A DNA stretch of 64,000 bases from Tetraselmis striata. Lineage: Eukaryota > Chlorophyta > Chlorodendrophyceae > Chlorodendrales > Chlorodendraceae. The translations under genes and the position numbers were made by a program. The notes below the pieces were generated by a model. The model had not been told where the DNA came from, ran no database searches, and saw only the letters and a program-made list of their open reading frames with translations. Below are positions 123 through 64,000 of this stretch, in pieces; position 1 is the stretch's first letter; every line of letters starts with the position of its first letter. The DNA is taken from the NCBI GenBank assembly GCA_006384855.1, contig VCJN01000965.1, forward strand, positions 62,001 through 126,000. The letters run 5' to 3'.

Positions 123-3100
123 TTTCTAGTAGTCTCCGAGCGGCCCCAGCCGCGGCCGCGCGGCGGCAACCGCGGCCTAGCGCTCACCGGCCTCGATGCT
201 CTCGCCCACCTGCATTCCAGGCTACACGACAGCGGGCCGGCGCGGCGGGGCGTAGCGCCGGCAGCGGCTTGGACAGTCGCCGACGCGCTTTCAGTCGCTG
301 GCGTCGCCGCGGGCGCCGCGTGGGCGCAGAGGATTGACGCCGCAGCCAGGTCGCTCCAGCCCGCCCGCGTCAGGCACCACCCGGCCGACGTGTTAGCTTT
401 CACCGAGGTCGCCGCCGCGTGGCTAGTCAAGGCGCGCGCCGTGCTGGCCGAGCGGCACCGCCGTCGGGGGGCGCGCCGCGCCGGTGGAGCTGGACAATCG
501 TCAGTGATGCCGTCGCCCGCACTCCCGTCCGTCGCTGCGTTCCGGGGCGTCGCAGCGCCCCCGGTTGTTGCCCCCACGCCGCCAGAGGTGGGTGCACCGG
601 CCGGCCACCCCGGTAGACAGGCCTCACGGGCTCGGTATCCGCCCCCCCTACTCGCCCATCTCCAGCCGGCGACGGGGTGGGGTGGGGTGCAGTGGATGGA
701 CCACCTCTCCGATGTGGACATGGTGCACATGCCGGCGGAGATGTCCATGGAGACGGCGGTGCCTATTGACTTTCAAGAAGCGTGGGCGGAGGCACAACGC
801 TGCGTGAATGAGCGGGTGGTGGCGGCGATGGAGGCCGATGACCCCGTGGTGTTGGATAGGGCGTTGAAGTGGAAGTACCTGCTGCCGCAATTGTTGCTTA
901 GGGCCCCGAGCCGAGGCGGACGGCGGCGGCTACAAGCCTTGGCGTGGCGCTTCCGCGCTTTCGCGGAGAGGCGCATGACCGAACTCGTGCACTCATGGGA
1001 CGACGCGCGCACTGAGGCGTTCTACGCCGGACATGCCCGCCAGCGTCGGACGGACGCCGATCTCTTTGCGGCGCTGCTCGTGGGCACCGCGGACACCGTT
1101 GTGGCGTTGGTGGAGGACGGAGAGCTCTCCCGAGCGGCGGGCCGACTATCTTCCAAGGGTATGGGCGACTTGTCCGATCCTGCTATCCTCGCCTAGCTGC
1201 GCGACAAGCACCCGTCCCGTAGCCACCCGATCCCAGACGCCGCGTATGACATTCCGGTGGACGAGGCCGCCCTGACGGTGGACATGCGCGTGCCGTACCA
1301 GCAACTCAAGCAGCACGTGGCGGCGGGGCCCTCAGGCATTCGCAACGAGTATCTCCGCTACTTGGTGGGCGAATACGCCCCGGCGTCCGGGCCCGCGGCA
1401 GTCCGCGCCATGTCGGAGGTTGCCTCCATGTACCTCCAAGGTCGCCTGCCAGGGTGGTTCAACCGGTTGTTCGCCTCCGCTAGGCTCGTGGCACCTGTCA
1501 AGAAGCTAGGCGAGGGGAGGGCCCCGGACGTGCGGCATGTGGCAGTCGGGGAGGCGGAGCGGCGCGCAGCGGAGCGGGCAGTGGTGGACAACATGAAGGA
1601 GGCATACGTGTCGGTGCTCGCTCCATCTCAGCTCGGCGTTGGCATTCCCGCGGGCGACTCTGTGCTCATCCACGGCGTCCGGCTCATCGCCGAGAAGCTT
1701 GGCCCACGTGCCGTCATCGTCCACTCAGACCTTCGCAACGCTTACAACGAGGGATGGCGCCGCACCATCATCAAGCGCCACATCGATTGCTCGCCACTGC
1801 ACCCTGTCATCCCTGCGCTCCTAGCCTCCCTCTCCACGGATTCGTATCTGGTCGTTGACGACCGGTCCGCCCCTCTGCGGTCGGAGGACGGCGTGCAACA
1901 GGGCGCACCTTTGGCCACGACTTCCTTTTGCGTCGCGATTCACCCCGAGGTGCAGCAGTGTGATACCACGTTGGAGGTCAATGACGGGGCGGCGCGCTTC
2001 AACGCCGACGATGGATTTTTGGTGGGCCTTCCGGAGCACGTTTGGCCGGCACTTCACGCCTTCCGCACGTCCATCAAGGCGTCCGTGGGGCTTGAGGTGC
2101 GCTTCGACAAGATGCAGACGTACAATGCTGACATGGAGGCCGCGCGGCGTGAGGCTCCGGCCGACATCGAGTGGCCCGAGCTAGATGGCCATCACAGCAT
2201 CGCGGTTCTGAACGTGCCGCTCGGATCGCCAGAGTATGTGCATGCGTACATGCGCGGCAAGGCGGAGGAGCTACGAGAGGAGGTGGACGCTAGCCTGAGC
2301 AAGCTTCTGTCTGCCAAGCCTAGCCGTCGGTACACCCACGCCTTGCATCACCACGCATGGGCCCTGCTCAAGTATTGCATGCAACAAAAGGCGGGGTATT
2401 GGCTCCGCAATTGTCTTCCGTCCGAGGTGGAGGCCTTTGCGGAGGCGGTGGATGCCACCATCCTCGCGGCGCTCGAACGGGTGCTAGGGGTCTCTTTTGA
2501 TCCCTCCACGTACGGCACCGACACCAATCCGGTGGTCACCGATTTCTTGGCGGAGCTTTTGCACGACCCCGACCCCATGGCAGGGGAGGTGGCTACCTTG
2601 AGCGAGGATGCAGTGGCCAGGGCGCGCAGCAGGCTTCACCTCCCCACTCGATTGAAGGGAGCTGGCATCCGCCGCATGGCTACCGTTCGTGATGCCGCCT
2701 TCATCGGCTGCATGAATGCCATCCTCCCAAGGTTCTTGACTAGGAACTCCGGCACCAACACCCCCACCCCTGGTTTCTTCGACCCACAGCTCGGGTCCGT
2801 ACTTGGCCGAGGCAGCTTCAACGCAAATTCTTCCGCCCGCCAGTATGACCACTTCCTCAACGATGCTCATGGGTCGGACAGCTACGCCGCGGAGATGCGC
2901 GAGGCGTGGGGCCGCCTCCAAGCGGCTACCACTGGCCATCTCGGCGACGCAGATGCACGCCAGATGGAGCGGGAAGTGGAGGCTGCGTCGGGCTCGCAAA
3001 AGGAGCTGACGGCATTTCTAGACCATGCCAACAACTCTCGGCTTCGAAATGAGGTGTGCGCTCTCCCTGCCACATGTAGGGAACGGATCTTGTTCAACCA

Positions 3101-3926
3101 GCTCGACGCGGCGTCAGGCATGTGGACAGTGGCCATCCCCACCGCGCGGACAGCCATGACTCCGCATGAGCTGCGGGAGGTCGCTGCCGGGTACTTCTTT
3201 CTGCCTAGCCTGTGCTTGGCCCCGCCGGTGGTTGGGTGCCAGATCATTCTACCCTCGACGGAGCACAACCCCGTCATTGTTGATCTATACGGCGACGCGC
3301 TCATGAACCTCCCGGCGCCTGGAGACGCTCACTGGCGTGTACAGCACGACGCTATCGCAGATGCCTTCCGCGATCACTGTGTTCACGACCTAGGTATCGC
3401 GGTACGGCGGGAGGTGGATTACTTGTTCCAGCAGGCAATGCCTCTCGGCAACACCGTACCCAGGGATGAACTCAAGGACCTAGTGCCGGACGCAGAGCTC
3501 TCCCCTCCGGCGTTCAACGTCGTGATCGGGAGCTATGATCCCCGGAGCTTGAAGTCCACGCTGCTGGAGTTCAAGACTATGCGGTACGGGGTCAAGTACA
3601 CTTCAGTGCCCCGGGCCACAGCTGTGGATCGGTTTGAGCGCTCCCTGTTGGGCGACATACAACGGGGGTTGGCTGCGCGCGATGCGGCGTGGCACAACAC
3701 ATATCCCGGACAGAAGGGTCCTCTTCGAGACATCCTGGATATGTCGGAGTACACGGGCATGGTCTTCGGCACAGTGGGTGAGGTGAGCAAGGGGGTGCAC
3801 CGCACAGTGCGTACGTGGTATCGCATGCTTGGCTGCGGATCGGGGTGCCCTCTCATCGCGGGGCACTCGGTGCATCACCCGGGCTCACCAGGAGGCCTTG
3901 CTCGCAAGATTTCCTCGGGGTTCTGA
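123..3926 (+). pseudogene. Non-LTR retrotransposon ORF: reverse transcriptase plus C-terminal nuclease-like domain, one in-frame TAG
   Basis: One reading frame is open from a TAA at 120-122 to the TGA ending at 3926, interrupted only by a TAG at 1194-1196; no ATG opens its first 350 bases, so the start is unclear. The part after the TAG is 889 codons and has RT signatures in order: GPSGIRNEYLR (finger/palm entry), SDLRNAYNE (first catalytic Asp), GVQQGAPLATTSF, and ARFNADDGFLVG at about 1999-2034 in place of the usual YADD/YLDDG. The part before the TAG ends in text typical of the region upstream of RT in this family (SDPAILA then LRDKHPSRS), so the TAG sits inside a domain; CAG to TAG would explain it. 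The C-terminal third contains HWRVQHDAIADAF and LLEFKTMRYG, which fit a restriction-like (PD-(D/E)XK) endonuclease. RT identity is secure; the nuclease is inferred. The copy is nearly intact and probably young. Confidence 0.82.
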
Positions 3927-4450: not shown

Positions 4451-4763
4451 ACTCGCCTCAGTTGCATGTGAGCGCGCGCAGCAACAGACCGTCGTCATCA
4501 GACGCTGATGCTGTACGACGGGCGAGTCCGCAGCGGACACTGGAACTGGTATCAGCAGTAATCCTTAGTCGCTATCTCCAGCACACCGGGTACAGGTACG
4601 AGGCCGCCTGCAAAGCATTGCCAGCCCCCGCACCGCCGCCCGTTATTCGCCACACCTACGTTGCCCGCTCACTTGCCCCAACACCAGCAGCACTGCGCCA
4701 GCAGCACTACCATAGCACGTGGCACCACCATAGCACGCACCCACCGTAGCACTCGCAGCTGCC

Positions 4764-6149
4764 ATGGAGCTTGATAGTCAGGCGCCAGCTCCGGGGGGGG
4801 CGGCGACGTACCCGCACTCTGTGGCCGGGCAACAGGTCCAGGCTGCGCCGCCAAGGGAGCGGGCGCCGCATTCCGCGACGAGTGCCTGCCAGCTGCTCCC
4901 TGGCCGCGACGAGGCCAGCAGCGACTCGCGCTACGTCGTTAAGGCGCGCATGTCCTGGTTGAAGGCCGCCGAGGTCGCCACCCTACTCCGGCTGGGCTTC
5001 TCCGGCAGCCTTGTGCAGTCCGGCGCACCCGCGCAGCTGCCGACGGGCGGCTCGCTGTACCTGTACGACCGCAGGCGGGTGCGCCACTTCCGCGCGGACG
5101 GCCACAACTGGCGCAAGAAGCTCGACGGCAGCGCCGTCCGGGAGACGCACGAGAAGCTCAAGGTAGAAAACATCGACACACTCAACTGCTACTATGCGCG
5201 GGCGATGGAGCCGGCGGGCCTGCAGCGCCGCTGCTACTGGTTGCTGGAGGATGACAGCCTGGTGCTGGTGCACTACCTCACGGCGGGGGGGCGCGCGGGG
5301 ACGTCCAGGGAGAGCAACGACCGGGGCGTGCCGGCGGACGGACGGTGGCAAGATGCGCTGCAGCTGCTCACCAGCGCGTCGGTATTGGGGACGGCTCAAC
5401 AAGATAAGCAACGCCGGCGCAGCCACGACGAGGACTTCGGCGACTTCGACGATTTGCTGCAGGTGGAGCGGCGCGCCCAGTCCTACTCAATCTCGTCGAC
5501 CCGGCCCTCGCTGGAGGCGCCCCCCCGCGGCCGCCACTCGAGCCTGGAGGAGGACCGGGACAGCTTCATTCTGCCGGGGGAGAACTGGCTGGGGAACCGC
5601 CAGACGGCACAGCGCTGGTCGCGCGCCGCGGCACTGCCGCGCAGTATGCAGATGCCACAACCTGCCCTGGAGGCGATGGATACGCAGCCGCTGCTTCCCT
5701 GGGAGTCTTATCCCACTGCCACACACCCAGTCCCGGCATTGAATCCGGCGCCTTGCCAGCTGGCTAGCCAACAACTATACGGGGGGCTCATGGACGCGGT
5801 CGCGATGGCGCCGCAGCAAGAATACGCACCCCCCAATGGCCGGCCATCCATGGAGGATACCACTATGGCGGAGCACCCGGAGCCTTTTCAGGTGGTAGAT
5901 GTCAGCCGCAATGTGGTGGGCGCGCATGGAGGGGACAAAGTGCTGGTCGTGGGCACCATATACAGCAACTGCGATCTGCGCAATGGCGTGTACGTGGAGG
6001 TGGACGGCGTGCGGTGCTCCGCACGGCAGATCAATCCGGGCGTCATCAGTTTCATCACAGAGCCACACCATCCTGGCATCGCTCGCGTGATGATCAGCGA
6101 CTCATTCGGACATGTTATGAGCTCAAGCGTGCGGCTGCAGTTTGTGTAG
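4764..6149 (+). CDS. CAMTA-like transcription factor, CG-1 + IPT/TIG domains, short form, copy 1
   Basis: Single-exon ORF of 461 codons; the start ATG sits in a good context (gccATGG). Residues 59-172 are a clear CG-1 DNA-binding domain: SWLKAAEVATLL, GGSLYLYDRR, FRADGHNWRKK, ETHEKLKV, LNCYYARAMEP, QRRCYWLLEDD and LVLVHYL are all hallmarks. Residues 373-461 read as an IPT/TIG immunoglobulin-like fold (FQVVDVSRNVVGAHGGDKVLVVG ending SSSVRLQFV). The middle 200 residues are low-complexity and acidic/serine-rich. Known CAMTAs are usually 850-1200 residues and continue with ankyrin repeats and calmodulin-binding IQ motifs; here the protein stops right after IPT. It is expected to act in the nucleus as a DNA-binding regulator, but direct calmodulin control is not supported. 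A paralogue of equal length and layout lies at 44965-46344 on the opposite strand. A TGTAA signal follows at 6277-6281. Confidence 0.88.
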   Translation: MELDSQAPAPGGAATYPHSVAGQQVQAAPPRERAPHSATSACQLLPGRDEASSDSRYVVKARMSWLKAAEVATLLRLGFSGSLVQSGAPAQLPTGGSLYLYDRRRVRHFRADGHNWRKKLDGSAVRETHEKLKVENIDTLNCYYARAMEPAGLQRRCYWLLEDDSLVLVHYLTAGGRAGTSRESNDRGVPADGRWQDALQLLTSASVLGTAQQDKQRRRSHDEDFGDFDDLLQVERRAQSYSISSTRPSLEAPPRGRHSSLEEDRDSFILPGENWLGNRQTAQRWSRAAALPRSMQMPQPALEAMDTQPLLPWESYPTATHPVPALNPAPCQLASQQLYGGLMDAVAMAPQQEYAPPNGRPSMEDTTMAEHPEPFQVVDVSRNVVGAHGGDKVLVVGTIYSNCDLRNGVYVEVDGVRCSARQINPGVISFITEPHHPGIARVMISDSFGHVMSSSVRLQFV

Positions 6150-44964: not shown

Positions 44965-46344
44965 TCATACAAAGCGCAAGACTATGCCCGAGCTGATTAC
45001 CATACCAGTCGCGTCTCCAATCACAACATGTGCGATGCCTGCCACATGTGGCTGTGTCAAGAAGCTTATTACTCCTGATTGGATGACCTGAGCGGGGCAT
45101 GCCACGCCATCGACCTCCACGCACACTCCGCCGCTCAGGTCGCAGCCGTTGCCCACAATCATGACCTTGTCTCCTCCATGAACAGGGACCACCTCGCGGC
45201 TGATATCCACGATGTTGTACAGCCCAGTTAGAGGGCTGTGCGCAGAATCTCTGGCTCCGTGGTGCTCGTCCATCGAAGGTCTGCCGCTGTGGGTGCTGTT
45301 CTCGCTCATCACCGACACGCTGTCCGTATCCATGTCGCTAGCAAACAGCTGATCGCGAGAGACCTCCGGCAAGGGTCGCTGTGCGATGCTCGAACCAGGG
45401 AAGTTATCCCACGGCAGCAAATTGTCCGACATCAGCGGGTCTACGGCATTCCATGGTAACTCCGAAGTGCGCGGCGCTGCAGAGTGACCAGTAACCGATC
45501 TGCTCGACCAGCGCCGCCCCACCGGGTGGTGCTCCACCCAACCTGCCCCCGGCAGTGCGAATGTGTCCCGAGCCTCGTCCAGGCTCGAGTGCCGTGACGA
45601 GCCTTGCAGGGAGTCCTGCTGGATCCCCGAATCTACCCGCAACGCGTCCATGGTAGCGCCGAAGCCCTCGAGTTCGATATGGGGGCGCTTCAGCTCCTGC
45701 CAGGCTTGCTGCCCGATAGGTTCGTCCGCGAGCAGACACATTTGTATCGTCTCTCTCCAGTCCTCGTCACGAACGCCATGGTCACTGACGTCCATCGAGT
45801 CTCGTTGATTGGTGTCCCTCAGGCCTCTGCCGCTGGTGCCTGTTAACAGGTAGTGCACAAGTACCAGGCTCTCGTCCTCCAGCAACCAGTAGCAGCGGCG
45901 CTGCAGGTCCGCCGGCTCCATCGCCCGCGCGTAGTAGCAGTTCAGCATGTCGACATTGTCCACCTTGAGCTTCTCGTGCGTCTCCCTCGCGGCACTGCCA
46001 TCGGACTTCTTGCGCCAGTTGTGGCCGTCGGCACGGAAGGAGCGCACGCACTTGCGGTCATACAGATAGAGCGAGCCGCTGATGGGTTGCGCCGCCGGCG
46101 CCGCGGAAAGCGGGAGGCAGCCGGCGAAGCCGTGTCGCAGCAGCTGTGTGACCTCTGCAGCCTTGAGCCATGAGTTACGCGCCTTGCGCAGAATGCGGGC
46201 TTCGACACTGGACATGCTGATGTCGGGCTGCAGCGACCGTGCCATTGACTTCGTGACGGGGGCTGCAACCAGGGCAGCAGGTGACTGCTCGAAGATCGCC
46301 GCCGGTTGCGCGACGGCCTTCTTGGAACGGAATGCCGAAAACAT
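44965..46344 (-). CDS. CAMTA-like transcription factor, CG-1 + IPT/TIG domains, short form, copy 2
   Basis: Single-exon ORF of 459 codons on the minus strand, paralogous to 4764-6149. CG-1 domain at residues 51-166: SWLKAAEVTQLLRHGF, SGSLYLYDRK, FRADGHNWRKK, ETHEKLKVDNVDMLNCYYA, QRRCYWLLEDESLVLVHYL. IPT/TIG fold at the C-terminus (about residues 373-459: NIVDISREVVPVHGGDKVMI to SSGIVLRFV). The middle is Ser/Asp-rich, with a segment (SSRHSSLDEARDTFALPGA) that matches the equivalent in copy 1 (GRHSSLEEDRDSFILPG), so the paralogy runs the full length. The N-terminus differs (FSAFRSKKAVAQ). Like copy 1 it lacks ankyrin repeats and IQ motifs. Both domains are intact with no stops, so selection has kept it. 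Expected nuclear DNA-binding regulator. Confidence 0.88.
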   Translation of the reverse strand: MFSAFRSKKAVAQPAAIFEQSPAALVAAPVTKSMARSLQPDISMSSVEARILRKARNSWLKAAEVTQLLRHGFAGCLPLSAAPAAQPISGSLYLYDRKCVRSFRADGHNWRKKSDGSAARETHEKLKVDNVDMLNCYYARAMEPADLQRRCYWLLEDESLVLVHYLLTGTSGRGLRDTNQRDSMDVSDHGVRDEDWRETIQMCLLADEPIGQQAWQELKRPHIELEGFGATMDALRVDSGIQQDSLQGSSRHSSLDEARDTFALPGAGWVEHHPVGRRWSSRSVTGHSAAPRTSELPWNAVDPLMSDNLLPWDNFPGSSIAQRPLPEVSRDQLFASDMDTDSVSVMSENSTHSGRPSMDEHHGARDSAHSPLTGLYNIVDISREVVPVHGGDKVMIVGNGCDLSGGVCVEVDGVACPAQVIQSGVISFLTQPHVAGIAHVVIGDATGMVISSGIVLRFV

Positions 46345-46944
46345 AGTGCTGCTACTGATGATATATTAAATGCTGCTGCCCCCGGAGTGTTGGCGCTCGG
46401 CGGAGCTAAACCAGGGGCAGTCCAATTGAACAGCGGTATGGTGCAAGTAGCAGTAGAAGGGATGGCACAGAGGACGCAGTCCCACCGCTAGCGAGTTCGT
46501 ATGCTGCCGGTGGGTCTGCGGCTAGCGATGTGGCCAGTGTTTGCTGCCGCTGCTGCTCCACTTGACTCTTGTGTGTACTGCTCCCGGGAGCGGGCCAGAC
46601 TCGTGTGCAGGTATGAGATATCAGTAGCGACTCCCCATGCTCCGCATTTATACGGAAGGAAACGAGCAGTCGCTAGGCTGATATTATTCGTGGGCCGTGG
46701 CGAACGAACAGCTGTATTAATCTACTCCTTATGTATGGGTAGCCACTACGAGCGAGGAGGGTGGTACCCGCGTATAGTACGAGAAACTGTGCGTAACGTT
46801 GTATGGCGCAGCCGCCCGCCCGCTCGTGCCCGAGCGCCGAACGGCGCTCGCCCGCCATTTCTTACCGGCTCGTACGCGCGAAATTCCGTCACTGGCCAGC
46901 AATTAGTTTTGCAGAATCCTTCGGCAATTTGCTTTATGACCATA

Positions 46945-58291: not shown

Positions 58292-60190
58292 TCACAAGGA
58301 ACGTTTGGTTTGCCGACTAGAAAATGCCGGGCGCAGCAGGCCACGGGCGGGGGTCACGGCGGGAATGTTGAAGGCGACGACAGGCCAGCGGGGTGCGCCC
58401 ACGGGAAGGCGGTCGCCGGTACGGCCAGGAATGAAGAGGTCGTGGCGCGGCTTCCAAGAGCGCATGTCGGAGCACATCTCCGAGAGGAGCTGGTACCAAG
58501 CTTTGTCAGGCCAGTAGGGAACAATGACGACGGCTGGGGCACCGCTGGACTCAAGTTTGGAGACTAGATCGCCGATGAGGTTCCACGGAGGGTTACACCA
58601 GTTACGTTCGCAACGCCATGCAGCGTCGGAGAGGCGCAGGGCGTCGACGGCCTCGCACCGCGGGTCACGCCAGCGGGCGTTGTAGCGGGGTAGGAGGGCG
58701 TTTTCAGAAGTCGCGAAGCGGTCGATGGTGCAGGCGCCCCATTTAGCAGTGAGCGAGGCGAATCGACGAGGGTTGAACTGCCAGTCGTCGCAATCAACCT
58801 CGCGACTAAGGCGGTCAGCCCAGATATTCGCCGCAGAACGGATGTAACGCACGGAAAGGGTGATGCCGTGCGTGTCCATGAGGTACCACGTTTTGCGTAG
58901 CTCAGGCATGAGGCGTGGAGAGCGAGAGGTGAGGTTAGTGAGGACGCCGACAACCGCTTGGTTATGAACGTGCAAGCGCATGTGGCGATTCTGGAGCATG
59001 GGGAGGAAGGACTCGATAGCCAAGCGGACGGCTTTGAGCTCTTTCAGGGTAATGTGCGCATTGCGGTCATCGTCGTACCAAAAACCCCGAGCTTCACGGT
59101 GCTCGTTCAAAACGGCACCCCAGCCGTACGACGAACTGTCGACATGTAGGTATCCGGTTTCGACGGGGCGGTTAATGGGACGGCCGTTGTGTTGGGTGGG
59201 CACACCCACCCACCATTGCAGATCGCGTTCGAGCTGGCGGGGTAAGCTTGCTTTGTCGCGGCCGGATCAAGAGTCGCGCGTCTTGAGCACATCATGCAGC
59301 TCACGAAGGGAGAAACGGGCAGGGGCAATGGCCAAGTAGACAAATTGGCATCTGCCCGCGAGAGCGGCCAACTCGCGAGCTGGCAACCACCGACGATCGC
59401 GTTTTGCTCGTTGGATCAGGCGTTTGGCCGCGCGAGCAATGCTGGCGAGTTTCTCAGCGGGCGCGCGAAGAGTAGGTGACCCCGATGTGTCAATTTCTAA
59501 CCCCAGGTGCACGAGCTTCTGGGTGGGCTCCCACACGCCCTTGTTAGGGTTGCGCAGCAGACCAAAGTCCGAGAGGTGGCGTTCGACGTAGTCACGTTGC
59601 CTGATGGCCTCAGCCTGAGTCCGAGCTAGAAACAGGAAATCGTCCATGTAGGGCAACATGCGCAGGCCAAATCGTCGCCGGGGAATAGGTGTGCCGTCTG
59701 CTTCACGACGCAATGCCCTAGTGAGGACGTTGGTGAATTGGCAGAAGTAATAGGGGGACAGAGACCAGCCCATGGGAAGGCCAGCCAGTCGGTACAGAGT
59801 GCCGCGGTAATCGACAGTGAAAAAATCCCTGTCCTCAGGGGCGATTCCAACCGCGTAAAACCCGTCCTGTTGGTCCATCTGCAACATGTCGTCCCCAGGG
59901 CGCGCCAGGTTGCGTAAATGCGAAAGCGTCTCAAACGAAAGATCGCGCGTCTCGCAATAGCGGTTCAGGGGGCGAAGGTCAATGATGAGCCTCCATTTGT
60001 TTGTTCCAGGCTTAGGAACCAGGAACAGCCGGGACACCCATTTTGCGCAGTAGCCTCGCTCCCAGGCCCCAACGGCCAGGAGGCGAGCCAATTCACCGTC
60101 CATAAACTCCAGTTGAGCAGGAGTAGTGTTATACTCCATTTCCCTATAGCCATAATGTTCTGCTATACTAGCAGGTATAACTCCCCGCAA
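58292..60190 (-). pseudogene. DIRS-like retroelement ORF: RT, RNase H, Dam-like methyltransferase; one in-frame TGA
   Basis: One minus-strand frame broken only by a TGA at 59267-59269. RT part (59270-60190): WVSRLFLVPKPGTNKWRLII, DLRPLNRYCE, MLQMDQQDGFYAVGI (catalytic Asp), LPMGWSLSPYYFCQ and LPYMDDFLFLA. After the TGA: RDLQWWVGVPTQ, RNase H with LHVDSSSYGWGAVL (Asp) and LKELKAVRLAI (Glu), but LHVHNQAVVGV where VDN is usual, so one catalytic Asp is lost. Then a Dam-like adenine methyltransferase fold: WGACTIDRFATSENALLPRY, NWCNPPWNLIGDL (NPPY-like motif) and AVVIVPYWPDKAWYQLL. This domain order is that of DIRS elements (such as Volvox Kangaroo). The tyrosine recombinase expected downstream is not found. 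The left (5') end abuts the gypsy LTR at 60222. Confidence 0.85.
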
Positions 60191-60221
60191 AGGTAGTACG
60201 ACTACGCATCCGCGGAGTCGC

Positions 60222-60539
60222 TGTACATATTAGTATTGCGGGCGTAAATATTAGTAGTATAAGGCCGAAGACTGTTCTGGAATTCTCTAGAGTTCTCTGA
60301 CTCAAGCCTTACGTGGCTAACACAGCACGGGTATCCCATGACACCCGGCTAACATAGCACAGGTATGACTATGACCTCGGCGGGTATAAATACCGCCTCG
60401 GACAAGTCTACTAGGTAGAATTCAGAGACAGAACTATAACCCAGGAACCCCTGTAACCAGAAGAGATTGGCCATACTTTCTAAATCCTTCCGCTGCATCC
60501 TAAAGGGCCTAAAGAACAGGCTTAAGCTAGAGCCTAACA
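60222..60539 (+). repeat. Probable 5' LTR of the Ty3/gypsy element
   Basis: Inferred limits: starts TGTACATATT and ends CTAACA, the TGT...ACA ends usual for LTRs, about 318 bp. A TATAAA lies at 60385-60390 inside GGGTATAAATACC. Two bases after the proposed end is a possible primer-binding site. The 3' LTR is outside the window, so the borders are not proven. Confidence 0.5.
60385..60390 (+). promoter_or_regulatory. TATA box in the probable LTR
   Basis: TATAAA within GGGTATAAATACC, about 190 bases before the gag ATG, at the position expected for an LTR promoter. Confidence 0.5.
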
Positions 60540-60541
60540 CT

Positions 60542-60553
60542 TGGTTTCGGAGC
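60542..60553 (+). promoter_or_regulatory. Possible primer-binding site
   Basis: TGGTTTCGGAGC differs at two positions from the initiator-Met tRNA complement TGGTATCAGAGC as it occurs in plant retrotransposons. Its place right after the proposed LTR end supports the call. Confidence 0.4.
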
Positions 60554-60578: not shown

Positions 60579-61738
60579 ATGGCTACACCAGGAGAGACAC
60601 CACCTGAGGACAGCGGAAGCTTTCCGGTAGCGGCCACTGCCGGCGAAGCACAGCCGATTCCGCTCGAAGGAGGTCAAGAGGGCACGCAACCAACCCTCGC
60701 AAACATGATGAGCATGCTTCAACGACTAGCCGACCGAGTCGAGACTATGTCGACGGAGCAAGCGAAGATGCAAGAAGTAGCGCAAGCTACGACGGCGGCA
60801 ACGGCGGAGATTCGCCGCTCGGACGAGTACGTGCGACAAGGCTTCAGTCATTTCGACGACCGAGTGAACCGGAGCCGAGTTGTAGAGCAGCAGATGCGAG
60901 ACCAGCTTCGTTATGCCCGGACCAGCGACATGCATGGACACATGCCGAGCGATGTGAAACCAGCGAAGATCGAGAAGCTATCGACTACGAATATCGACGA
61001 GCTACGGAACTGGTTTCGTCATGCACGGGCTACCTGAAATATCACAATGTAAACCCGGAGGAACCTCGTAGCGTGTACTGGGCATCTGGCTATTTTCACG
61101 GACCCGTATCCAAGTGGTGGTACGCGCAAGTGGCGAGTACGCACGACGAAATTGGCGGCGGTTTTACCGGTATTACGCACATGGAGGCGGCACTAATCAC
61201 CGAATTCTGTGGACGTACACCGGCGAAGCCAGCTCGTATCAATCTGGATCGCGCGACACAGCGGACTACATTACAGAAGTACGCGAATTATTTCCGCGAG
61301 CAACTACTGGAGTTACCCCATCGTCACGAGGAAGATAATGTACATGACTTCCAGCGCGGACTGAAACCCCATATTCGAAAGGAAGTGGCCCTGAAAAACC
61401 CTAAGACCCTGGCAGAAGCTGTACAGTCAGCTCTGGCTGTTGAAGCTGCGGAGCGGGAGACAGATGTGCACCGCGAGATCCGTCGCGAGCGCCTAAACAT
61501 CATGGACGACGATGGCGACGACGACGAGCAGTACTACAGCAGTGCTGAGGGTGAAGCTACAGAACAAGAAGACGACCTGTTGATGGCGCGGCGATTGACC
61601 GAGGAGGAGTTTGAGAGATTTAAGAAGGAGGGACGCTGCTTTATCTGCAGGGCGAAAGGTCATGTTGCGTCCGCGTGCCCGAGCAAGAAGAAGAAGATTT
61701 CCGAGTATCGACCCAGAAAGACCCGGCCGGGAAACTAA
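60579..61738 (+). pseudogene. Ty3/gypsy gag with zinc knuckle, one frameshift
   Basis: The ATG at 60579 opens 152 codons (QRLADRVETMSTEQAKMQEV, a coiled coil; then STTNIDELRNWFRHARAT) ending at a TGA at 61035-61037. The protein continues in another frame from about 61034 (LKYHNVNPEEPRSVYWASGY) through the capsid-like region (KWWYAQVAS, ALITEFCGRTPAKPARINLD, YANYFREQLLELPHRHEEDN, DFQRGLKPHIRKEVALKNPK) to a CCHC zinc knuckle (CFICRAKGHVASAC) and a TAA at 61736-61738. A single small indel explains the frame change. The retrotransposon Gag identity is clear; the copy is broken. Confidence 0.82.
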
Positions 61739-61741
61739 GAC

Positions 61742-62866
61742 GTGAGTCGGCCGCGCGGCGCGCGACAGGGTGAAGGACTGTCCCCTAAAACGGCTCGCGA
61801 GACTGCAGAAGTACAGCCCTCGTATCCTCGAACGACACCGAGGCATGATTTCCTCCACAAGGATTTCAGCGACTGGATGGTACATCGCGAATTATTTCAC
61901 GAGTACACGAAGAAATACGGACCCTGCGACCTGGACGGAGCTTGCGATAATGACGGCCTCAATTCTCAAGTTTCTGGTAGTTTTTGCTGTCCGACGCGCC
62001 CATTTCAGGAACAGGATCTCGGAGAATATCGGCGTATTTGGCTAAATGCCCCGTATGACCGAATTGAAGAATTTTTGGGCCACTACCTTCGACAGAAGTT
62101 ATTGCATCCGCATCTACGAGCAATTATTGTGGTCCCAAAATGGTCGCGTAAGCCGTGGTTTCGACTACTTAGAAATTTTCGTCTGGTGGATGAGTTGCCA
62201 GCGGAGACTTCTGTGTTTACGTGTCCAACGAACGATGGCATAGAAGGTGCGAGACAAGATGTTGGCCCCACTCGATGGGCGACACGGATCTACGCTGACG
62301 ATGGCGCCGGCGTACGGTTCCTACCGCAGCACCTGAGAACCCCACCGAAGCATGAGTGGACGCACTCGAAGGTTCTAGTAACCGATGGAAGACGAGTGCT
62401 TCTGACTGTAGAAGACAGCGGACTGATTTGGTTTCCAGAAGGCAAGCGCGGCGACACGGACGCGACGCCGGAGACAACAGCAGTACGACGATTACTCGAG
62501 CAAACTGGGTACCGGGTACAGGAGAGCAATCTACGGTACCTCGGCACTCAGCGGACGGGAGACAACCGGTGTCCTGTATACCTGTATCGCGCTCGTCGTA
62601 ATATTGTACCTACGAAGACCCCTTTGAACCGTGCACTATGGACAACCTGGAAGAAATTATTGGAGGCACGAAGTACGGGTTATCTGGAGACGGAGACAGT
62701 ACGCTACCCACTACGGTACGAAAGCTTTGGCGAACAAATTGATGAATATGTCAACCGTAACGTCCGACTACCTGGCGAAGACTCCACATCGCGTTTGTGC
62801 AACGTATCTTCACCGAGTGGTACCCGACTACTGACTATTACTGGCGAATTGCGAGGACGACACTGA
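61742..62866 (+). CDS. Dam-like methyltransferase + Nudix-like region at the N-terminus of gypsy pol
   Basis: 374 codons in the same frame as the end of gag and the protease; only the gag TAA separates them. Residues 46-165 match the Dam-type adenine methyltransferase pattern: YGPCDLDGACDNDGLNSQ, IWLNAPYDRIEEFLGHYL (NAPY in place of NPPY) and RAIIVVPKWSRKPWFRLL. The neighbouring DIRS-like element has the same three blocks with matching spacing. Residues 205-300 look like a Nudix fold: KVLVTDGRRVLLTVE, LIWFPEGKRGDTD and TTAVRRLLEQTGY; the Nudix box REUxEE is RRLLEQ and the upstream Glu is Ala, so hydrolase activity is doubtful. The first in-frame ATG falls at residue 46, so expression may need readthrough of the gag stop. 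The last residues (LLTITGELRGRH) belong to the protease domain. Two domains by pattern; not checked by search. Confidence 0.6.
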   Translation: MSRPRGARQGEGLSPKTARETAEVQPSYPRTTPRHDFLHKDFSDWMVHRELFHEYTKKYGPCDLDGACDNDGLNSQVSGSFCCPTRPFQEQDLGEYRRIWLNAPYDRIEEFLGHYLRQKLLHPHLRAIIVVPKWSRKPWFRLLRNFRLVDELPAETSVFTCPTNDGIEGARQDVGPTRWATRIYADDGAGVRFLPQHLRTPPKHEWTHSKVLVTDGRRVLLTVEDSGLIWFPEGKRGDTDATPETTAVRRLLEQTGYRVQESNLRYLGTQRTGDNRCPVYLYRARRNIVPTKTPLNRALWTTWKKLLEARSTGYLETETVRYPLRYESFGEQIDEYVNRNVRLPGEDSTSRLCNVSSPSGTRLLTITGELRGRH

Positions 62867-64000
62867 AAAATACTGGTGGACTCTGGTGCAACCGAAAATT
62901 TTGCGAGTACTGAATGGGTACAATAGCATCAGTGCCCTACAGTATCCGGAGGAAAACACCGTATAAAACTGGCGAACGGCAGTATGAGTACCAGTACCAA
63001 ACGGCTGAGGAGCGAAGTACTTACCGTAGGAGCTTTCGACTATAAATTGGACGCTATAGTTACAGACCTGGAGAAATTCGACATTATTCTCGGACAACCT
63101 TGGCTGGAAACAGTTAATCCTGACATTGACTGGACTGCTAAAATTATCAAACACCGGAAGACTGGACAACACATTGCTACAGCGGAACAGTATACAGTAC
63201 CTACGACGGTTTACCATCTGGACGCGGCTAAGATGTCGAAGGAGCTGAGGAAGAGTCGCGGCGAGGAACTGTTTGCTGTTGCGGTACGCGAGGTGTTCGA
63301 TGCGGTAGCTGAGCTGCGCACGGACCAGTCGACCGAGTGGACCGAGGAGCTCAAGGAGTCCCTTATGGAGTTTGCAGACATCATCGCGGAGCCTACTGAC
63401 CTGCCACCGGAGCGCGAGTTCGACTTTGAGATCAACCTGGAAAGTGATGAACCCCCCAAGGAACGAACGTACCGTATGTCACCAGCGGAGTTGCAGGAGG
63501 TACGGTCTCAACTGGAGGAATTGTTGGCAAAAGGGTGGATTCGTCCGTCCAAGTCAAACTACGGCGCCCCAATTTTATTTGTGCGTAAGAAAGACGGCAC
63601 TCTGCGCGCGTATGTGTGTGGACTACCGTAAATTGAATGACCTTACGAAGAAAGACCGGACCCCGCTTCCTCGTATCGACGAATTATTGGACTCATTGCA
63701 TGGTGCGACTATTTTCAGTACTCTGGACCTGTATAAAGGCTACCATCAAGTACGAATTAAACCGGAAGACATCCACAAAACAGCGTTCCGGACACACTAT
63801 GGACTCTACGAGTACTGTGTGTTACCTTTCGGCTTGACAAACGCCCCAGCTGGATTCCAGACTATGATGAACCGTGTTTTGAGCCCATATCTCGGCAAAT
63901 TCTGCGTGGTATACCTGGACGACGTGCTGATCTACAGCAAGACAGCTGAAGAGCATCTCGAGCACATCAGATTGGTGCTACGGGAGTTGCAACGACACCA
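62867..64000 (+). pseudogene. Ty3/gypsy protease and reverse transcriptase (runs off window), stops and a frameshift
   Basis: Directly after the TGA at 62864-62866 the same frame reads KILVDSGATENFAS, the retropepsin active site, then hits a TAG near 62918-62920 and resumes through FDYKLDAIVTDLEKFDIILG (protease flap/end, ILGQPWL), a linker, and the RT start: RTYRMSPAELQEVRSQLEEL and GWIRPSKSNYGAPILFVRKK. At about 63615, in a TG repeat, the frame shifts; the next frame gives VDYRKLNDLTKKDRTPLPRI, LDLYKGYHQVRI, THYGLYEYCVLPFGLTNAPA and VVYLDDVLIYSKTAEEHLEH (YLDD at 63912-63923). RNase H and integrase would follow outside the window. Clear Ty3/gypsy RT; the copy is not functional as read. Confidence 0.88.

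Follow-up and report, generated by a model that had tools for sequence, protein, structure and literature searches.

The DNA analysed here, a window of 64,000 nucleotides from Tetraselmis striata (contig VCJN01000965.1, positions 62,001 to 126,000), carries at its right end a chromovirus-like Ty3/gypsy retrotransposon of 6.7 kb with long terminal repeats (LTRs) of 413 bp. Ahead of the protease, its Pol polyprotein holds two further domains: a Dam-like methyltransferase (MT) domain of the adenine type, and a Nudix domain. The element is abundant and recently active, and the pattern of variants among its copies indicates that both domains are under purifying selection. The presence of an adenine-MT-type domain together with a Nudix domain at the head of a gypsy Pol appears to be new; an earlier mention of Dam in gypsy elements is possible. 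The features of the element in the window, and of the element that it interrupts, are the following (RT, reverse transcriptase):

60127 to 60539, plus strand: 5' LTR, 413 bp, TGTTATAC...CCTAACA; the 3' LTR lies outside the window and is identical at 412 of 413 positions
60542 to 60553, plus strand: primer-binding-site-like stretch TGGTTTCGGAGC, directly after the LTR
60579 to 61738, plus strand: gag, Ty3 capsid-like, with a CCHC knuckle; frame broken near 61037
61729 to 61738, plus strand: slippery heptamer GGGAAAC, then the TAA that ends gag; a -1 shift into pol is proposed here
61820 to 62302, plus strand: Dam-like N6-adenine methyltransferase domain (Pfam core 61871-62164), with NAPY at 62045-62056
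62315 to 62722, plus strand: Nudix domain (Pfam core 62372-62596), with the degraded box WFPEGKRGDTDATPETTAVRRLLEQTGY at 62429-62512
62867 to 63580, plus strand: retroviral-type protease (VDSGAT at 62876-62893) and linker to the RT
63580 to 64000, plus strand: start of the RT (approximate); RT, RNase H, integrase and 3' LTR run past the window (locus L031)
60122 to 60126, no strand: target-site duplication AGTAG, left copy; beyond the window, the same five bases stand after the 3' LTR
58292 to 60126, minus strand: RT, RNase H and Dam-like MT of a DIRS-type element, interrupted by the gypsy insertion; its MT domain is homologous to that of the gypsy element

The two domains at the head of Pol

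Both domains are carried by an open frame of 375 codons (61739-62866, plus strand). The sequence-only reading had placed the beginning of this frame at 61742; that it is open was confirmed, but 61742 is not the natural start, since the pol of relatives overlaps the end of gag and is read in the -1 frame relative to it. The same reading had recognized a Dam-type fold with NAPY in place of NPPY and a Nudix fold with a degraded box, and both folds were recovered by Pfam profiles and by fold searches.

The Dam family (PF05869) was matched over residues 44-141 of the window frame (E=7.6e-6) with 26.1 bits, two bits under the Pfam cut-off of 28.1. The related protein P0001 reached 28.0 bits, and three copies of the same family exceeded the cut-off (C230, C2480 and C1240, with 32.1, 30.9 and 30.5 bits, respectively). 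Pfam matches to Dam were also obtained for the relative copy L033 (E=4.5e-5) and for the distant relatives P0002 (1.8e-5) and P0013 (3.7e-4). Furthermore, the MT fold is supported by profile-profile comparison, by a structure model and by fold searches, in which phage Dam head the named viral predictions; a first structure model (14 rows) was poor, with a predicted local distance difference test (pLDDT) of 51.9, and was left unused. In PHROGs, the family phrog_111 (DNA methyltransferase) was matched at 0.0091 by L033 and at 2e-7 by the DIRS frame of the window, and P0001 matched no family. The search of PDB sequences gave a best E of 0.12 for the window frame and no match for the MT profile, including the RNA cap enzyme PCIF1. 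A chance profile match was considered and rejected, on the homologues found in protein searches and on the profile-profile comparison.

Motif IV of Dam-type MTs has the consensus [DNS]PP[FYW], in which the asparagine, a proline and the aromatic residue matter most. Among the 27 MT-Nudix-type rows with letters at this motif, 13 have NAPF, 4 NAPY and 2 NAPL, and the remaining rows have, one each, NALF, NALL, HPPY, HAPY, NAQF, IAQF, KCAI and QIEK (misaligned). The MT-only rows show NPVY, NPVF and, in P0036, NPPY. In the family of the window element, which we call here the home family, NAPY or NAPF was found in all 18 copies that were chosen by their RT (see below) and are readable at motif IV; copy L053 has NPPY.

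The Nudix family (PF00293) was matched over residues 211-285 of the window frame (E=5.2e-6), with 27 bits against a cut-off of 21.1. The match is present in L033 (1.4e-5) and becomes stronger in the more distant P0002 (1.2e-10) and P0013 (2.9e-13), in which Dam is similar or weaker. The score over the cut-off and the Nudix fold found by fold searches place the domain in the Nudix superfamily. In the fold search, Nudix matches of many substrate classes were tied, MutT being among the matches, and in PDB sequences P0002 matched an Ap4A hydrolase (E=1.6e-4). The canonical box Gx5Ex7REUxEExGU is not found in the home family, where it ends in RRLLEQTGY. The degradation of the box described before could be extended to the family: RRLLEQ, with two of the three glutamates of REUxEE replaced, occurs in 60 of the 66 loci scanned (RRLLGQ in one, five unread; some places were counted twice). 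One of the five unread loci, L046, reads RRISEK. As regards the 14 metagenome rows, all three glutamates are present in two of them (P0002 and P0013), two in P0006, the middle one only in nine and none in two. The Gx5E part of the box was out of register in the aligned rows inspected.

Copies, relatives and selection

The window copy itself is broken. As had been noticed from the letters, gag and RT are disrupted, by frame changes near 61037 and near 63610; in addition, there is a length difference directly after the GGGAAAC heptamer, at the start of pol, and in-frame stops flank the protease active site (62864-62866 and 62924-62926). The single difference between its two LTRs points to a recent insertion, and the breaks could be recent mutations or be due to errors in the assembly.

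The organization of the element was read in L033, where gag is open for 393 codons and pol, which overlaps it in the -1 frame, for 1539 codons. According to Pfam, its Pol contains the Dam-like domain (57-154), Nudix (224-298), protease (about 380-482) and RT (627-787), followed by RNase H, integrase and an SH3-like C-terminus. The order of protease, RT, RNase H and integrase in this pol and the CCHC knuckle of the window gag are those of Ty3/gypsy elements. A chromodomain (PF00385) was not matched in L033 at E 0.01, and in P0013 it was matched under the cut-off (E=0.0076). All four full copies read have paired LTRs of about 413 bp and stretches resembling a primer-binding site and a polypurine tract, and two of the four have a matching 5-bp target-site duplication. 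We take TGGTTTCGGAGC, at 60542-60553, to resemble a primer-binding site of the initiator-tRNA type. In the other two full copies, L033 and L034, no matching duplication was observed, and L033 has 7 mismatches between its LTRs over 414 positions; the mismatched flanks and these differences may stem from recombination between copies. In 32 of the 34 loci examined, or 28 of 30 distinct places, GGGAAAC immediately precedes the TAA stop of gag, the remaining two having no match to the GGGAAAC-TAA search string.

At least 110 scored places of the genome (1215 first-look candidates) encode the MT-Nudix segment, and in 57 of them the frame has no stop over at least 1500 codons. Since the first 30 loci had been ranked by the MT-Nudix segment itself, they were left out of the selection tests. 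A second genome search was based on the RT, with 134 of 2319 candidates scored; both 110 and 134 are lower bounds. Going down the RT ranking, twenty copies were selected without consulting the segment: it extends over its full length in 18, is partly present in one and absent from one, these exceptions being single copies with deletions. Among 12 stretches chosen by their Nudix domain, L045, L051 and L054 had no match to the segment. A single insertion of the segment is thus rejected by the number of genome places, by the RT-chosen copies and by the relatives P0012 and P0013.

Variants were counted against L033, as nonsynonymous to synonymous, and were called shared when present in at least two copies; small frame-changing indels, present in 5 of the 18 segment-spanning copies, were skipped. 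In the MT, the shared variants were 2 to 5 and the singletons 15 to 7; in the Nudix domain, 3 to 4 and 6 to 10; in the linker and protease start, 1 to 1 and 6 to 6 plus one stop. For the shared variants of MT and Nudix pooled (5 to 9), a binomial test shows a departure from neutrality (p=0.011). An older copy, L046, with 86% identical DNA and with stops, gave 20 to 32 in the MT (ratio 0.27, p=3e-6) and 35 to 33 in the Nudix domain (ratio 0.52, p=0.005). These results argue for the selection on the region that had been proposed from the open frame. Furthermore, the identity to the distant full-length Pol P0013 is 47% in the MT, 46% in the Nudix domain, 42% in the protease and 77% in the RT; by this measure, the protease is no better conserved than MT and Nudix.

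Some of the counts weigh against purifying selection, or give it little help. The shared variants are few, and their contrast with the singletons in the MT is suggestive only (Fisher p=0.09). In the Nudix domain, shared and singleton ratios are alike (0.37 and 0.29), so that this contrast is no help there. For the diverged copies L047, L048, L049 and L056, which have few changes, the ratios ranged between 0.44 and 2.87, a mixture that is expected of decaying copies.

A first protein search found 11 homologues of the segment at 49-70% identity, and a later one 37 proteins including those 11; there were 39 distinct proteins overall, mostly metagenome fragments. The two long relatives, P0012 (860 amino acids, 57% identity) and P0013 (1547 amino acids, 44% identity), keep the same domain order, P0013 throughout a full-length Pol. 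In P0009 and P0011 the frame continues from Nudix into the protease active site. In another metagenome fragment, P0029, the gag zinc knuckle continues directly into the pol frame, as if this lineage or copy had no frame change at the gag-pol junction.

Dam-like domains were also found in other retroelements of the genome. Of 150 scored candidates from a genome search with PF05869, 122 matched, and ten stretches were retrieved. L039 represents a second gypsy family, with a pol of 1534 codons in which a Dam-like domain (E=1.3e-4) is followed by protease, RT, RNase H and integrase, with a chromodomain (E=1.6e-7) and no Nudix match up to E 0.1 (Pfam). The MT thus occupies the same place, ahead of the protease, as in the MT-Nudix family. 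In this MT-only family, gag and pol share one frame around a single TGA, then CGG (L039 1110-1160, also L040), which suggests stop read-through instead of frameshifting. L035-L037 and L042 were identified by reading as DIRS-type, with the Dam-like domain downstream of the RT; in L037 an adjoining frame of 424 amino acids weakly matches the N-terminal domain of phage integrases (E=0.005), and the recombinase was read by eye. L042 contains a DIRS-type frame of 696 codons (518-2605) with NAPF at motif IV, so gypsy elements are not alone in having lost the first proline. Twenty of the 122 matches lie in frames of 696 codons, of which only L042 was read.

The alignment between the profiles of the gypsy MTs (11 rows) and of the DIRS MTs (5 rows) covers 140 columns, with a probability of 99.3 and E=1.7e-20, and a DIRS MT matches phage Dam with 31.8% identity (E=2e-7). 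The comparison of a gypsy MT, P0014, with phages (tblastn) gave nothing under E 0.4. On these alignments, the gypsy MT is homologous to the DIRS MTs and, through them, to phage Dam. In a tree of 19 MT rows, a branch supported at 88/85 (90% of bootstraps) has all 11 gypsy MTs on the same side, which is compatible with one gain in gypsy, the domain being short and the tree unrooted. In viral contigs, four stretches matched a search pattern and none was confirmed.

Proposed function and alternative explanations

Our preferred reading, to which we give about an even chance, is that the element delivers an N6-adenine MT with Gag-Pol, beside a Nudix domain that is probably no longer a canonical hydrolase. 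The -1 frameshift would put both domains into the minority Gag-Pol product, and by this route they would be packaged together with the RNA, the RT and the integrase, after which the protease may cut them free. The MT could then methylate N6 of adenine in nucleic acid of the element itself, the newly made complementary DNA (cDNA) being the most likely substrate, and the methylated copy would resemble active host chromatin or escape degradation. PMC12695648 reports that N6-methyladenine (6mA) accompanies transcriptionally permissive chromatin across unicellular eukaryotes, so that an element that writes 6mA could mimic active host genes. The Nudix domain was probably a nucleotide pyrophosphohydrolase ancestrally, the three glutamates being retained in P0002 and P0013, and in the amplified family it would most likely bind nucleotides or RNA, or serve as a scaffold, next to the MT, with no canonical hydrolysis.

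Several observations speak against this reading. The Dam score of the window lies under the Pfam cut-off, and the matches to the NCBIfam model TIGR01712 are far under theirs. Motif IV of the window is NAPY, not NPPY, and 10 of the 27 MT-Nudix-type rows stray beyond NAPY and NAPF (for example HAPY in P0013 and HPPY in P0004). In the amplified family the Nudix box has lost two of its three catalytic glutamates. No significant RNA structure was found downstream of the heptamer (z=+1.0). Finally, the best solved fold match of the MT is not a DNA enzyme but PCIF1 (PDB 6irz and others).

This last match leads to an explanation that we regard as unlikely, in which a PCIF1-like MT writes N6,2'-O-dimethyladenosine (m6Am) on the cap-proximal adenosine of the element RNA and the Nudix domain is a relative of decapping enzymes that binds the cap, the pair protecting or labelling the genomic RNA. 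Slightly less likely still is its fullest form, a cap-metabolism pair of m6Am writer and Nudix pseudo-decapping module made with Gag-Pol, which would guard or label the RNA genome against decapping in the particle; if true, it would be a retroelement-encoded epitranscriptome system. Against the involvement of the cap stand the failure of the MT profile to find PCIF1 among PDB sequences, the lead of phage Dam among the named viral predictions and the tie of many substrate classes for the Nudix domain; besides, PCIF1 may be the nearest fold by default, if the PDB contains no PF05869 structure. It seems rather improbable, if less so than a role at the cap, that both domains are catalytically dead and were kept as nucleic acid- or nucleotide-binding modules for particle assembly or RNA binding. 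Motif IV differs from NPPY in 29 of the 30 aligned rows with letters (only P0036 has it), and at least one REUxEE glutamate is gone in 12 of 14 metagenome rows, as this explanation would have it. However, 17 of the 27 MT-Nudix-type rows and every readable RT-chosen copy retain the asparagine, a proline and the aromatic residue at motif IV, NAPF also occurs in a DIRS family (20 matches in frames of 696 codons, one of them read), and the constraint in L046 is stronger on the MT than on the Nudix domain.

The position of the Nudix domain between frameshift site and protease, the place of the betaretroviral dUTPase, would suit a sanitation of the nucleotide pool, with a Nudix domain that still hydrolyses a damaged or non-canonical nucleotide and an MT of secondary importance. 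The complete glutamates of P0002 and P0013 and the MutT fold match agree with this idea, but the prevalence of RRLLEQ in the amplified family, with its lost glutamates, makes it quite improbable. The possibility that the segment is a degenerating passenger, that is, functionless host or DIRS sequence, is close to refuted, and we consider it very improbable. The copies are very alike, and a single burst could therefore have spread any passenger; nevertheless, the same domain order is found at 44% identity in P0013 and at 57% in P0012, L046 shows purifying selection, and a second gypsy family has an MT in the same place.

As to the reading of a delivered adenine MT, the copies are recent and numerous, and adenine methylation of the element's own DNA or RNA is therefore directly testable by long-read sequencing. 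The Nudix domain, degraded in the amplified family and glutamate-complete in P0002 and P0013, offers a natural series for its role in retroelements.

Known systems and other features of the window

Among retroelements, Dam-like domains had been known from DIRS, and methyltransferases of the cytosine type from a few gypsy and DIRS elements. PMC3783388 describes DIRS-type retrotransposons that carry a Dam-like MT. In DIRS the MT lies after RT-RNase H, and there is a tyrosine recombinase and neither protease nor DDE integrase. In the window-type gypsy, unlike in DIRS, the MT is ahead of the protease and is followed by Nudix, and there are LTRs and an integrase. The MT domains are nonetheless homologous, and such DIRS families occur in the same genome, one of them being the insertion target of the window gypsy. 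A DIRS identity of the MT-Nudix element was rejected by its integrase domains. KnitGypsy-Dnmt3 and SymbioDIRS-Dnmt3, from algae, carry a DNA methyltransferase within a gypsy or DIRS Pol under purifying selection (PMC5890265); these enzymes are of the cytosine type and are called there structurally unrelated to the Dam-like ones, and for the DIRS element the authors suggest methylation of the cDNA. In that paper the word Nudix is absent. We rejected an identity of this type for our element, with no C5 cytosine methyltransferase Pfam domain found in the window or in L033. In PMC8547959 the words methyltransferase, gypsy, Nudix and Dam are all absent. The literature searched, with thin coverage of subscription journals and sources seen partly, gave no description of a Nudix domain in an LTR-retrotransposon Pol; an earlier mention is possible.

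The phage N-6-adenine-methyltransferases (PF05869, TIGR01712) share profile and fold matches with the element MT, which differs from them in having NAPY for NPPY, in being part of a polyprotein and in its scores near (Pfam) or far under (NCBIfam) the cut-offs. The cap-specific adenosine methyltransferase PCIF1/CAPAM, the nearest solved fold, has no match at the sequence level, and no WW domain, the only other PCIF1 part considered, appeared in the Pfam scans. Betaretroviruses have a dUTPase between the frameshift site and the protease. The element resembles them in its heptamer and in an extra nucleotide-metabolism fold at that place, and differs in that Nudix and MT replace the dUTPase, in that no frameshift-stimulating RNA was found and in its algal host. 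In PMC3835772, GGGAAAC is listed as the -1 site of Mason-Pfizer monkey virus (MPMV), simian retrovirus 1 (SRV-1), Jaagsiekte sheep retrovirus (JSRV) and others. As for the host, the light-harvesting complex (LHC) frame L080 of the genome points to a green plastid lineage: green chlorophyll a-b proteins are its best matches for single domains, and the entry with the highest score, 9vfj (Euglena), is a polyprotein with lower scores for its separate domains, although a euglenoid would also be compatible with these matches.

The gypsy copy sits inside the DIRS-type element of the opposite strand, whose own Dam-like MT has NPPW, so that one MT-bearing retroelement is nested in another. At the other end of the window (123-3926, plus strand) there are two long frames, non-LTR reverse transcriptase-like by eye, the second of which had no Pfam match at 0.001. 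Finally, the window encodes two CG-1 domain proteins (PF03859) that are alike, at 4734-6149 (plus strand, E=7.7e-36) and 44965-46365 (minus strand, E=3.1e-38), each in a single open frame and in opposite directions.
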